Origin: Levilactobacillus bambusae | GTDB lineage: Bacteria > Bacillota > Bacilli > Lactobacillales > Lactobacillaceae | Assembly (NCBI RefSeq): GCF_003124125.1 | Contig: NZ_QCXQ01000002.1 | Span: 658,645 to 722,644, forward strand | Length of the DNA stretch: 64,000 bases | Direction: 5' to 3' | Part shown: in pieces, positions 30,094 through 34,385 of the stretch | Position numbering within the stretch: the stretch's first letter is position 1 | Layout of the letters: every line of letters starts with the position of its first letter | The notes under the pieces: model-generated | What the model saw: only the letters and a program-made list of their open reading frames with translations | Told to the model about the DNA's origin: nothing | Database searches by the model: none | Made by a program: the position numbers and the translations under genes

Positions 30094-30220
30094 AAAAAAG
30101 AGGCAGGGACTTAAGACGTTCAGACCATGCCAAATAGGCAAAAGGACCAGGTTCGATTGTCATTTGATCGGATTTGGTCCCTTTGCTTATTTGGTTGTGG
30201 TCCCCGTAACTACTGGCCCA
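30094..30220. repeat. Interspersed hairpin repeat, family A with part of family B
   Basis: Forward family A copy: AGAGGCAGGGAC, AAGACGTTCAGACCATG, then an outer stem (CCAAATAGGCAAAAGGA with its partner TCCCTTTGCTTATTTGG) around TTCGATTG...TTGATCGG. The right end contains GTAACTACTGG, the reversed tail of family B. It lies between the ABC pseudogene promoter and the next tetR gene. Confidence 0.8.
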
Positions 30221-30965: not shown

Positions 30966-31616
30966 TCATTTTTTAAATTGTTGATACCAACCTTGATTAT
31001 CAAAAGCATACGGATTAATTGGGTTCTTCAGCACTTTCTCGGGTAATTGAACAATAAAAAAGGTCATCAATAATAGGATTAATACTCCCTGGCTAAATAT
31101 TTTCAATGATGGCTGATGCTGATTAAAATAAACCACAAAACCAATATCCAGTGGTAACCAACATAAAGTCGCCGTTATCAATCCTGGCGCATAATATACA
31201 TTTTGACCAACCCTTCCAAATGCAGCTAAGGACTGGAGGGCTAGAAAATTATGAATAATGAATTCAAAGAAGCTAAACAATGCCGTTGCCACCCCCATTC
31301 TGGGGTCAAAATGTTTTGTTTCCGTCAGGCTAAACCATAGCAAACCACCTAAAAAGTTAGTTAACATATCTGTTAATTCACTCATTGGATAACGATCAGG
31401 AAACTGAGAATGAAGATTATAAATAACATGAAAGCCACCTGGAATAACCCATTCTTCCCAAACGTGCAAAGTCAGTACAATCACAGTAAACGCCCCTAGC
31501 TTAGTTAACGTATTCCAGGACCGCCAATTAAGAATTAGTTGAACACTCAAAAGGATACTCATTGCTAGCATGCAGTATAACCATCCCCACCGCACGAACC
31601 ACAACCAAATTGTCAT
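30966..31616 (-). CDS. HXXEE-domain membrane protein
   Basis: A 216-residue membrane protein with six or more segments. It carries the signature LHVWEEW (His, then Glu-Glu, near residue 50) and a second conserved His in EFIIHNFLAL (about 122), the two hallmarks of the HXXEE family (PF13787). The family is widespread but uncharacterised; the conserved polar residues inside membrane segments suggest an enzyme or metal site. Start ATG follows a GGAGGTAGG site. Probably repressed by the convergent TetR protein. Confidence 0.75.
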   Translation of the reverse strand: MTIWLWFVRWGWLYCMLAMSILLSVQLILNWRSWNTLTKLGAFTVIVLTLHVWEEWVIPGGFHVIYNLHSQFPDRYPMSELTDMLTNFLGGLLWFSLTETKHFDPRMGVATALFSFFEFIIHNFLALQSLAAFGRVGQNVYYAPGLITATLCWLPLDIGFVVYFNQHQPSLKIFSQGVLILLLMTFFIVQLPEKVLKNPINPYAFDNQGWYQQFKK

Positions 31617-31679
31617 TGAACCTACCTCCTAAACTTAACTTACTGACAATAGTAATTGCAGTCCACAATGCTTTTCAAT

Positions 31680-31708
31680 CCAATAATGTAGTTTCGCTAC
31701 ATTATTGG
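31680..31708. promoter_or_regulatory. Operator-like inverted repeat upstream of the HXXEE gene
   Basis: CCAATAATGTAG and its exact complement are separated by five bases. It lies 64 bases before the start codon, in the promoter region of a gene paired with a TetR regulator. Confidence 0.6.
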
Positions 31709-31785
31709 AAAAAGTTGGAGTGCATTGGAAAATTTACTCTTTAACTTTATTTTTTAGTTGTTTTATCCATGTAAACCCAATCTCA

Positions 31786-31839
31786 CGACAAGCAAAAAGA
31801 GGAAGTCCATTTTGGAACGCTTCCTCTTTTTGCTTGTCG
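31786..31839. terminator. 20-bp perfect hairpin, probably the original rlmH terminator
   Basis: 31786-31805 pairs without mismatch with 31820-31839 around a 14-base loop, with internal A and T runs (GCAAAAAGAGG). It lies 34 bases beyond the left copy of the rlmH 3' end, where the rlmH terminator would be if the island were absent. Confidence 0.8.
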
Positions 31840-31872
31840 ATTATTCTCTAGCTTTTTATATGTCCATGACTT

Positions 31873-31892
31873 CGTCACTTATGGTACGGACT
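31873..31892. repeat. 20-bp direct repeat, left copy of the rlmH 3' end (att-like)
   Basis: Identical to 33560-33579. On the minus strand it encodes SPYHK and the TGA stop of RlmH. It extends into a short palindrome TACGGA-CT-TCCGTA (31885-31898) that the other copy lacks. It defines one end of the island that contains the Abi_C gene. Confidence 0.8.
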
Positions 31893-32004
31893 TCCGTATC
31901 GATTCTCACTGCAGCTAATTCAAGTACCTAAATCACATTGAAACAACTTTATAGTACGAAAATTTCATTTCCAATACTAGAAGGTCATCTTAATCTATTC
32001 TTTT

Positions 32005-32865
32005 TTAGAAAATTCCCCCACCCTGTTGATCGGGATATTCCATAGTAATGTAAATTTGAGTTCCATCCTTCGGCTTTAAAGACTCAATAATTATTGAGAC
32101 GTAAAGATCACACTGTTCAGAATAGTAATAATATTTATACACGGAATCTTTATTAAGCTCCGGAGCTAGTCTAACATCATTTGGTAAGTATGGTTGGACA
32201 ATATTATGAAGCGTCTCAACATCTAGTCCAGGTGTCAAAATAACTTTGGTCGTTATACAAATTTGCTGAATAATTCTAGTATCTTTCTCAAGATTATAAG
32301 TAACAGCGTCATTACTTTTTCTATCATTCACGATATAGTCATTATCACGTGCAAGTTCGAAACCATTCTTCATTTTAATATGGGAACCAATTATATTATC
32401 CTTCGTTCCCTTAGTTGAAAAAAACAGCTCCAGTAGCATATTACAGATAGCGGTCGATGTTGTTGCAATAAATTCAGCCTGAACTTCAGAGTGTCGTACC
32501 TTACGACTAGCTTGCCCATGAGATTCTGAAGTGTTATTGCGTATCTTTCCAATTTTTAAAGACATGTCTTGAATCATCTGCTTAAACAGTTTATCATCTG
32601 CTGATTGCACTTCTAAAGTATCTATAGCCCCCATAACTTTTTGTTTCAACTCCATGTTCTTAGGCAAATCACGACCGATCTTCTGTTTATAAATCCACCG
32701 ACTACAAGCCTCAAGCATACTTTTACTATAATTTATTGCACTATCATATCGTCCATCACTAAGCGCGGCCACTACATCATCAAAGCTTTCATTAACTGTA
32801 ATAACATCGTACTGCTTCAATTCTGGCAACATAAGCCGTCTTTCAATTTCTTGTTTCTGTAACAT
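32005..32865 (-). CDS. Abortive infection protein with Abi_C-type domain
   Basis: A 286-residue protein. Residues about 25-135 fit the Abi_C (PF14355) pattern: YDSAINYSKSMLEACSRWIYKQKIG, a Leu-rich helical middle, and the ending KIGKIRNNTSESHGQ with the conserved RN...HG. The C-terminal half is not recognised. Abi_C proteins are linked to phage exclusion, in several cases by RNase-like or growth-arrest activity; this one is untested. A good promoter precedes it (TTGAAA 32977-32982, TATAAT 32953-32958). The start is not certain, as ATG 32865 lacks a strong site and Met12 is an alternative. It is the only gene of the rlmH-flanking island. Confidence 0.78.
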   Translation of the reverse strand: MLQKQEIERRLMLPELKQYDVITVNESFDDVVAALSDGRYDSAINYSKSMLEACSRWIYKQKIGRDLPKNMELKQKVMGAIDTLEVQSADDKLFKQMIQDMSLKIGKIRNNTSESHGQASRKVRHSEVQAEFIATTSTAICNMLLELFFSTKGTKDNIIGSHIKMKNGFELARDNDYIVNDRKSNDAVTYNLEKDTRIIQQICITTKVILTPGLDVETLHNIVQPYLPNDVRLAPELNKDSVYKYYYYSEQCDLYVSIIIESLKPKDGTQIYITMEYPDQQGGGIF

Positions 32866-33559
32866 ATTTTCGATATGGTACGTCTCCTTTTCTGTAATCG
32901 GTTACATTTATTTTTAAAAAAATATGTTCCGATTCACTTTTATTTAATATGTATTATAACATAAAATGAAATTAATTTCAACAAAATTTTCATTGTTATT
33001 ATTATTTTATGAAAGCTTTGTTTCATTAGATAAATGTTAATATTTATTCACATAACTCCGCTAACATTACCTGTTTAGATTCTTAGAATGCCAGGGTGCT
33101 AGTAATTACAGCCCTAATTAGTTAGGTGGAATTAGTATTAACTCCCACATTTTCCCGTCCTTTTTGCGTATGAAATTAGCACTTATTAGAATTAATTTAT
33201 ATTTTTTTCTTTTGCATTTTACTAGTTAATAGAATATCTTTTTACATTTGTTGATTTGACAGTATTTGAATTTCTGTTTTATGACTTTTATTTCGATTTT
33301 TGGGTCTAATAGTGCACCTCAAATACCCACGAGTTCATTTATTATGTAGGTTTAGATTAATTTATGATTTTCACAACTATAGATAAGTACTATTAAGATA
33401 AAGTGATCCAATTTCTATATTAAGTTAATTATTTAGACAAATAAAAACCCATTCAGTTCTCTGGATGAGTTTCATAGTTAGAATATATATATTTATAGAA
33501 TTGACTAGAACTCTATTCTAGATAAATTGTAGTGTGAAGTTCCTTAATTATTTCACCCC
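32866..33559. other. AT-rich non-coding part of the rlmH island
   Basis: About 690 bases without a plausible gene. It holds the promoter of the Abi_C gene, an imperfect palindrome TGTAATCGGTTACA (32893-32906) in its leader, and a terminator-like hairpin at 33446-33473. The base composition is clearly more AT-rich than the flanking htrA-rlmH region, which fits foreign origin. Confidence 0.6.
33446..33473 (-). terminator. Hairpin downstream of rlmH inside the island
   Basis: A 12-bp stem with two G-T pairs (AAACCCATTCAG with CTGGATGAGTTT) followed on the minus strand by TTTTTATTT. It could now end the rlmH transcript in place of the displaced terminator at 31786-31839. Confidence 0.55.
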
Positions 33560-33579
33560 CGTCACTTATGGTACGGACT
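33560..33579. repeat. 20-bp direct repeat, right copy (3' end of rlmH)
   Basis: Forms the last five codons and stop of the intact rlmH gene. The matching copy lies 1687 bp away at 31873-31892. Confidence 0.8.
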
Positions 33580-34041
33580 CCCCTCATTAATCATAAACGC
33601 CCGGTAAATCTGCTCCGTCAGCACCAGCCGCATTAATTGATGCGGAAGCGTGAACTTGCCGAATGAAATTTGGGTGTTTGCCCGCTTTAAAACTTCTGGT
33701 GCGAGTCCAAGGGATCCGCCGATGACAAACGTGAGGTCGGAATGGCCGTACGTTGTAAGGTCCTTAATTTCCTTAGCAAACGCCTCGGAAGTCCGTTCCT
33801 GACCTAAGATGGCGAGGGCAAACACGTACTCGCGGTCCTTAATCTTGCTGAGGATGCGATCCCCCTCAGCCTGCATTACTTGATCCATCTGCGCCGAAGA
33901 AAGCGATTCAGGCGCTTTTTCATCCGGAACTTCGACAATGGTGAACTTGCAGAAGCGGGAGAGGCGCTTAGCGTATTCAGCGATTCCCTGTTTGTAATAC
34001 TTTTCCTTTAACTTACCGACAACGACTAATTTAATGTTCAT
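33562..34041 (-). CDS. rlmH: RlmH, 23S rRNA pseudouridine-1915 methyltransferase
   Basis: A 159-residue SPOUT methyltransferase, full length. It has [14 protein letters not shown], the AdoMet-binding loop [10 protein letters not shown], and the family C terminus [13 protein letters not shown]. It methylates Psi1915 in helix 69 of 23S rRNA. In staphylococci the same gene (orfX) is the attachment site of SCC elements, whose core covers the codons just before the stop. Here the equivalent codons are duplicated across the Abi_C island. The gene lies downstream of htrA in the usual wal-htrA-rlmH order. Confidence 0.96.
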
Positions 34042-34062
34042 AACTACTCCTTAATTCACAGG

Positions 34063-34385
34063 TTATCCACAAAGTTTTCCACAGGTACTTGTAAGAGGCA
34101 AAATCCTTGCATTTTCTGGATTTACGGCTAAAACTTCTATTTTGAGATCGATTTCAGACCAAAAATAAAGTTATCCACAGTTACCAACAGAACGTGCATT
34201 CGTGACACACACGGAAAAATACGATGATATCAGCATTTGAAGCGGATTATTTTGTTCGATTTTAAAGTTTTGCACAGTTACCAACATATCCTGTGGATAA
34301 CTTTAATTTTGTAACAAATGCCCATTTTACTTTGTTTCTTTTCTTATTTTACCGAAGTCACAAGTTATCCACAACGTTATCCACA
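34063..34385. other. Cluster of five perfect DnaA boxes between htrA and rlmH
   Basis: TTATCCACA occurs at 34063-34071, 34171-34179, 34365-34373 and 34377-34385, and its complement at 34292-34300. Several near matches lie between (for example TTTTCCACA at 34075). The density equals that around dnaA itself. The whole 555-base gap contains no gene. Confidence 0.8.

Follow-up and report, generated by a model that had tools for sequence, protein, structure and literature searches.

The window analysed here, a 64-kb stretch of the Levilactobacillus bambusae genome, contains rlmH on the minus strand (33562-34041; SPOUT_MTase, PF02590, 4.4e-58). The last codons of this gene (SPYHK and the stop) constitute a 20-bp attachment core at 33560-33579 on the minus strand, and the same 20-mer, CGTCACTTATGGTACGGACT, recurs as an exact far copy at 31873-31892, also on the minus strand. 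These are its only two places in the window; the 20-mer occurred in none of 100 dinucleotide shuffles, and no third copy within 3 mismatches was found in the 1,965,138-base assembly. The exact far copy described in the initial annotation was therefore confirmed by genome search and shuffles, and its concern that the 20-mer might be common elsewhere in the genome was removed. Read in the direction of rlmH, the order is rlmH, an AT-rich stretch, a 286-aa gene and the second copy of the rlmH end. From core to core, the cassette measures 1,687 bp (31876-33562, unstranded; 31% GC). GC content is 25.9% in the spacer (32866-33559, about 695 bp, unstranded), 35.7% in the Abi_C gene and 49.3% in rlmH. 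The Abi_C-family gene (32005-32865, minus strand; PF14355, 4.4e-7) is the single intact gene of the cassette, in which neither a second reading frame of at least 80 aa nor a recombinase between the cores was found. The earlier description of an Abi_C-type gene and about 690 bp of AT-rich DNA between the copies thus held. No recognisable genes or ccr remains were seen in the spacer, which gave no blastn match below E 0.1 against the rlmH loci compared and no trace of ccr or cch. A search of the L. bambusae genome for ccr-like serine recombinases, which had been suggested beforehand, gave no match to the large serine recombinase family PF07508 or to the CcrB model.

Both cores carry TACCATAA in place of the commoner TATCATAA. 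The corresponding repeats of staphylococcal elements in S. brunensis are given as GAAGC(A/G)TATCATAA(G/A)TGA in the available text of PMC10581047; both window copies read AGTCCGTACCATAAGTGA. That text also states that CcrAB needs a central GA and about 60-70 bp of site, and one C in TATCATAA is called essential for recombination in the accessible part of PMC6222049. This C and the GA are retained in both window cores; in the rlmH-proximal core, the crossover dinucleotide would be the GA of the TGA stop. The rlmH-side inner end of the cassette (CGGGGGTGAAAT) is a poor fit to the usual TGCGGTTTTTC.

To describe the site beyond its core, a motif was built from 28 sites (three probably noise) gathered from up to 19.9 kb downstream of rlmH in other genomes of the genus, with the window genome left out. 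The family consensus is roughly TTACGG-NNN-CCGTATCATAAGTGA-TGCGGTTTTTC. Scores were 34.2 bits for the far copy and 33.8 bits for the rlmH copy; elsewhere in the window the motif reached no more than -2.1 bits, and the best of 20 shuffles gave 9.2 bits. On the reverse strand of the same regions only two matches exceeded 10 bits, both below 11. Because the 20-mer supplied the pattern by which sites were gathered, a match in the core is expected; the conserved arms, including the TTAC/ATAC part, lay outside that pattern and provide independent support. In its extended form (31856-31909, minus strand), the far site consists of the element-side arm GATACGGAAGTCCGTACCATAAGTGA followed by a chromosome-side arm beginning CGAAGTC. 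Its element-side arm, GATACGGAAG (ATACGG..CCGTA), is typical of far ends in other species and is not the arm found at rlmH. Judged by its sequence, the far copy is a site end and not a stray repeat. That the rlmH tail was copied to the far position without a recombinase, through duplication or gene conversion, is very improbable: the cores are identical over 20 bp and share the rarer TACCATAA variant, as such an event would leave them, but what lies upstream of the far core is the arm common to far sites of other species rather than rlmH sequence, and 23 more genomes of the genus have further sites downstream of rlmH. The idea of another cassette to the left of this one in the window was also considered and was dropped, since the motif scan gave no further site.

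Just beyond the far copy lies an unstranded perfect-stem hairpin (31786-31839; -35.4 kcal/mol, z -7.9), an exact 20-bp inverted repeat that starts 37 bases past the far core, and inverted repeats occur near the corresponding place in six sister genomes. This hairpin is the probable original terminator of rlmH. The perfect 20-bp stem noted previously was found as described; the role assigned to it is held at probable, because its U-run falls within the stem and a simple terminator scan of 31500-34100 returned no terminator. Within the cassette, about 90 bp past the end of rlmH, is a second, smaller hairpin with a U-rich tail (33436-33482, minus strand; -10.6 kcal/mol, z -2.2, a weak signal equalled by 6 of 200 shuffles), possibly a terminator that arrived with the cassette. 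No match to the genes immediately past the far copy was found in the rlmH regions of the relatives compared; the flank itself gave piecewise DNA matches in 13 other genomes, at loci other than the compared rlmH stretches. Further along the flank, at 30094-30219, lies a dispersed repeat of approximately 105-126 bp with seven more genomic copies at 82-88% identity.

The product of the cassette gene has an Abi_C Pfam match of 30.3 bits (cut-off 24) and a PADLOC AbiJ match (9.7e-10) over residues 24-147; no match was found among NCBIfam models or, by sequence, in the PDB. In its Abi_C domain and AbiJ match it resembles the AbiJ/Abi_C abortive infection proteins, whereas its C-terminal half (residues ~150-286) lies outside the AbiJ match and aligns with homologues at 21-27% identity. 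Across eight aligned sequences, three of them closely related to one another, R109, N110, H116 and G117 are invariant. These residues include an RN-x5-H motif of the catalytic R-x4-6-H type, which we take to be the HEPN RNase motif. A single-sequence structure model (pLDDT 42) was too poor for a fold search. On the basis of the Pfam match and the motif, the protein is probably a HEPN ribonuclease. The AT-rich region upstream contains 17 promoter-like sites compared with 9.5 (sd 3.3) in shuffles, the best of which, TTGAAA-17-TATAAT with a TG, lies at 32953-32981 on the minus strand, 88 bp upstream of the Abi_C start, and agrees with 11 of 12 consensus positions.

The Abi_C gene was not found in the other genus members among 397 genomes of the family or in the rlmH regions compared, which speaks against the idea, raised at the outset, that it is a fixed feature of this site in relatives. 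Its seven best homologues outside the genome are located off the rlmH contig or more than 1 Mb from rlmH. A phage origin was tried as well and found no favour, with no relative in viral contigs or phage records. It is doubtful that the gene is an addiction or regulatory function that keeps the cassette rather than a phage defence. Stand-alone HEPN proteins do occur also in toxin-antitoxin pairs, and distant homologues (24.6%) are carried on two L. sakei plasmids predicted to be conjugative; against this, the cassette offers no second reading frame of the size given above, and several neighbouring cassettes hold genes of known defence families.

Across the genus, 36 genomes were sampled, 35 of which contain a full rlmH. 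Further sites of at least 20 bits were found in 24 of the 35, the window genome and 23 others; the remaining 11 had no far site at this threshold, although three of these have less than 4 kb downstream, and one genome (G017) had weak sites only (15.8 bits). In all, the sites delimit 40 units, 14 of which measure only 56-61 bp (13 genomes) and 26 of which carry cargo (21 genomes; 1.6-13.5 kb, median 3.4 kb). Of the rlmH ends, 34 of 35 retain the GA dinucleotide; among the units, 24 of the 26 with cargo and 6 of the 14 short ones have kept it in the far core. As far as sequence comparison reaches, the 3' end of rlmH is a cassette hot spot in this genus, in agreement with the SCC-type hot spot proposed initially, and the other cargo anticipated between such sites was met with in 20 further genomes.

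How cassettes sit at this place can be seen in two groups of genomes. One cassette has its first 130-150 bases directly after rlmH in G029 and G033, and in G030 a 90% identical cassette start follows the second core, 61 bp on, so that the junction is exact at the core. Six genomes (G012, G015, G017, G020, G027 and G028) share one right-hand flank preceded by different cassettes. An inverted repeat marks the start of this common flank, at a distance of 10-16 bases from the last core except in G020, where it is 78 bases away; the repeat is short in G012 and G020 (9 exact pairs), and the last core is degenerate in G017 and G020. At seven further loci, the common flank lies 0.9-17.6 kb from rlmH with no detected core beside it. 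The comparison for an empty site that had been called for gave this one right flank behind different cassettes in six genomes; an empty site with the right flank of L. bambusae itself was not found in the rlmH regions of the relatives compared.

PADLOC was run on seventeen proteins, for the most part the largest, which came from 13 of the 26 cargo units; 9 of these 13 units gave a match at 1e-5 or better. The matches comprise an AbiJ-like protein (G000), Avs2 at 1,109 bits (G009), SIR2 with HerA (G015 and G023), a kinase (G032), an OLD/AriA-like protein (G007), PDC-S06 (G020), a short ThsA-like stretch (G028) and an RmrA-like protein (G001), the kinase and ATPase matches being generic. No PADLOC match was obtained for the scanned proteins of G002, G004, G011 and G035. 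Other units hold Pfam families outside defence, namely a transporter and a ROK regulator (G024), an acetyltransferase and an AraC-type regulator (G029), a LysR regulator and an S15 hydrolase (G018) and an Rrf2 regulator (G027). The hot spot is therefore mixed, with much defence among its cargo, a share that is biased by the choice of large genes for the scan. The cassette of G009 is 4.5 kb long and filled by a lone Avs2 gene of 1,488 aa (L086 869-5335).

Recombinase genes are rare among these units. In 24 of the 26 cargo units no PF07508 match was found, and in several units one or two long reading frames take up almost the whole length. The other two (G012 and G031) each contain, between cores at rlmH, a block of cch-ccrA-ccrB in that order, in which two genes for large serine recombinases come after a helicase gene of the DUF927/Cch1 type. 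NCBI models gave, for G012 and G031, respectively, 536 and 516 bits for CcrB, 160 and 172 for CcrA and 214 and 191 for Cch1, all below the cut-offs NCBI sets for staphylococcal proteins. The ccrB reading frame is shorter in G031 (490 aa) than in G012 (542 aa) and may be cut short. The helicase matches structure 5dgk (4.9e-53), presumably the SCC helicase Cch, and the G012 element includes a DUF1643 gene, a type we assume to be linked to SCC. In L. namurensis, a CcrB piece (L099 14084-14821) that the PF07508 search had missed is 63% identical to the CcrB of G012; it lies at the end of a contig, 3.6 kb downstream of rlmH. The absence of ccr stated in the initial annotation consequently stands for the L. 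bambusae genome and fails for the genus, in which two sister genomes have complete blocks at rlmH and a third a ccrB piece. Both ccr elements also contain what seems to be the same uncharacterised gene (L077 14282-15760 and L080 4032-6571; 492 aa in G012), which in G031 is in two pieces around a reading frame that looks transposase-like by eye. Beyond the last core of the G031 element lies an AIPR-family gene (L080 14528-15712; 6.3e-39).

In the wider family, CcrB matches of at least 300 bits numbered 7 in 397 genomes, from four genera, and all lie 4.9-12.3 kb downstream of rlmH; outside Levilactobacillus, three genera contributed five genomes with CcrB downstream of rlmH. A tree of 38 proteins placed the six high-scoring CcrB sequences that were included from the lactobacillus family in one group (99/99). 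This group stands beside nine above-cut-off CcrB sequences of genus g57, taken to be Staphylococcus, together with L231 (joint branch 100/100), and the joint branch is apart from 20 other Bacilli recombinases; two low-scoring CcrB sequences of the family fall elsewhere. Two other pieces were seen downstream of rlmH, one CcrB-like (32%; L137 12504-13124, Apilactobacillus ozensis) and one Cch-like (33%; L125 19458-20468, Lentilactobacillus senioris). Across 80 named loci, an additional site scoring above 15 bits was present in 15. Gene ends serve as targets of other integrases as well, and the window cassette might be an island of such an enzyme, for example of the tyrosine type, that uses the rlmH end by chance. 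This is scarcely credible: the genomes were searched for serine recombinases, and those lying between such sites are large serine enzymes of the CcrA/CcrB type; GA, the reported central dinucleotide of CcrAB, is kept in 24 of 26 far cores.

Methicillin resistance is the cargo for which SCC elements are mainly known. Like an SCC, the window cassette is inserted at the 3' end of rlmH and is flanked by direct repeats containing the attachment core; the ccr gene complex that an SCC has inside it is found in neither the cassette nor the genome, and the cassette thus falls short of a full SCC. As a ccr-less unit between cores at rlmH, it fits a pseudo-SCC, a very small one that is part of a genus-wide system; the name is staphylococcal and is applied to a lactobacillus cassette by analogy. 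This agrees with the minimal ccr-less cassette with probable defence cargo that had been proposed, given the Abi_C domain and the genome-wide lack of PF07508 and CcrB matches. Staphylococcal pseudo-SCC elements likewise have attachment repeats at the rlmH 3' end and no recombinase genes, according to the available parts of PMC3900703, PMC4651549 and PMC10581047, but where these give a length it is 10.3 or 26.6 kb, compared with 1.7 kb and one gene here. The window cassette differs also in its lactobacillus host and in having no recognised resistance or virulence gene. The G012 and G031 elements share with staphylococcal SCC the cch-ccrA-ccrB order between cores of the same type, whereas the G012 CcrB is 42-45% identical to the nine above-cut-off CcrB sequences of genus g57. 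The Enterococcus element ECC, as portrayed in the accessible part of PMC6222049, shares the insertion in rlmH, CcrAB, the core 5'-TATCATAA-3' and a variable cargo that includes restriction systems; transfer and circles were demonstrated for it. A complete ECC is defined there by ccrAB, which the window cassette lacks, and the one tested is 32 kb long.

SCC-like islands are known from staphylococci, enterococci and other Bacillota (available parts of PMC6222049 and PMC10061031). Those of other Bacillota lie mostly downstream of rlmH, encode large serine recombinases and are sometimes in tandem, but were selected for polymerase-SSB pairs (PMC10061031, as far as available); its main text contains no occurrence of 'lactobac'. 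In titles and abstract openings of the openly licensed PMC literature, no report of SCC or ccr in lactobacilli was found, which is a lead and not proof.

The window cassette is best explained, and this is considered likely, as a recombinase-less cassette of SCC type, that is, a pseudo-SCC, with a probable defence cargo and movable by CcrAB in trans. A CcrA/CcrB pair acting in trans would insert the cassette at the core made by the last rlmH codons, an event that would keep rlmH intact and put a copy of the core on either side. The one gene brought in this way, probably under its own promoter, has an Abi_C/HEPN-type product, most likely an RNase, that would stop the growth of phage-infected cells. 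Excision as a circle would be expected if a full element like those of the sister species supplied CcrAB, and in this sense the cassette may still be mobile; with no recombinase in the L. bambusae genome, it may be frozen now. Recombinases that act on SCC without travelling with it have been reported (ccrDE; available text of PMC10581047), and transfer of ECC needed a conjugative plasmid (available text of PMC6222049). Rather unlikely is the reading that the cassette is a decayed SCC, the relic of a larger ccr-bearing element from which the recombinases were deleted. The gene-free 695-bp stretch between rlmH and the Abi_C gene would suit such a history, and a ccr-less S. haemolyticus island has been called an SCC remnant (PMC3637587, part available); yet the spacer retains no trace of ccr or cch, the two cores are identical, and the prevalence of cargo units without a PF07508 match, several of them compact, points to a stable-looking lifestyle. 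On the pseudo-SCC reading, food bacteria would have, at the very gene used by SCC, both a CcrB sister lineage and numerous small cassettes that lack a recombinase, several of which encode phage defence; this would point to SCC-type elements as an old traffic system for defence genes in Bacilli. Lactobacilli offer non-pathogenic laboratory species for asking how ccr-less cassettes move, what the helicase does and how elements are transferred.

The short units have a character of their own. The 14 two-core units of 56-61 bp (in L077, L080, L081, L089, L072, L088 and others) have an outer core without GA in 8 cases, compared with 2 of 26 cargo units (Fisher p 0.001, a guide only, since the units are related by descent). 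This loss of GA weakens the view of them as ordinary mobile cassettes, and they are possibly a docking or accessory-binding part. As a tentative extension, Levilactobacillus, and probably other Lactobacillaceae as well, may have in the end of rlmH an integron-like platform. Short cassettes flanked by cores, each with one or a few genes and frequently concerned with phage defence, would be loaded onto it, shuffled and lost through CcrAB from rare full elements; the cassettes would then be satellites of SCC, with the short units as a fixed docking part. A second, partial rlmH 3' piece, encoding 57 aa at 88% identity and ending in a core, was observed in G016 (contig C65, L069 13131-14187) on a different contig from the full-length gene; the unit immediately preceding it holds a 929-aa gene.
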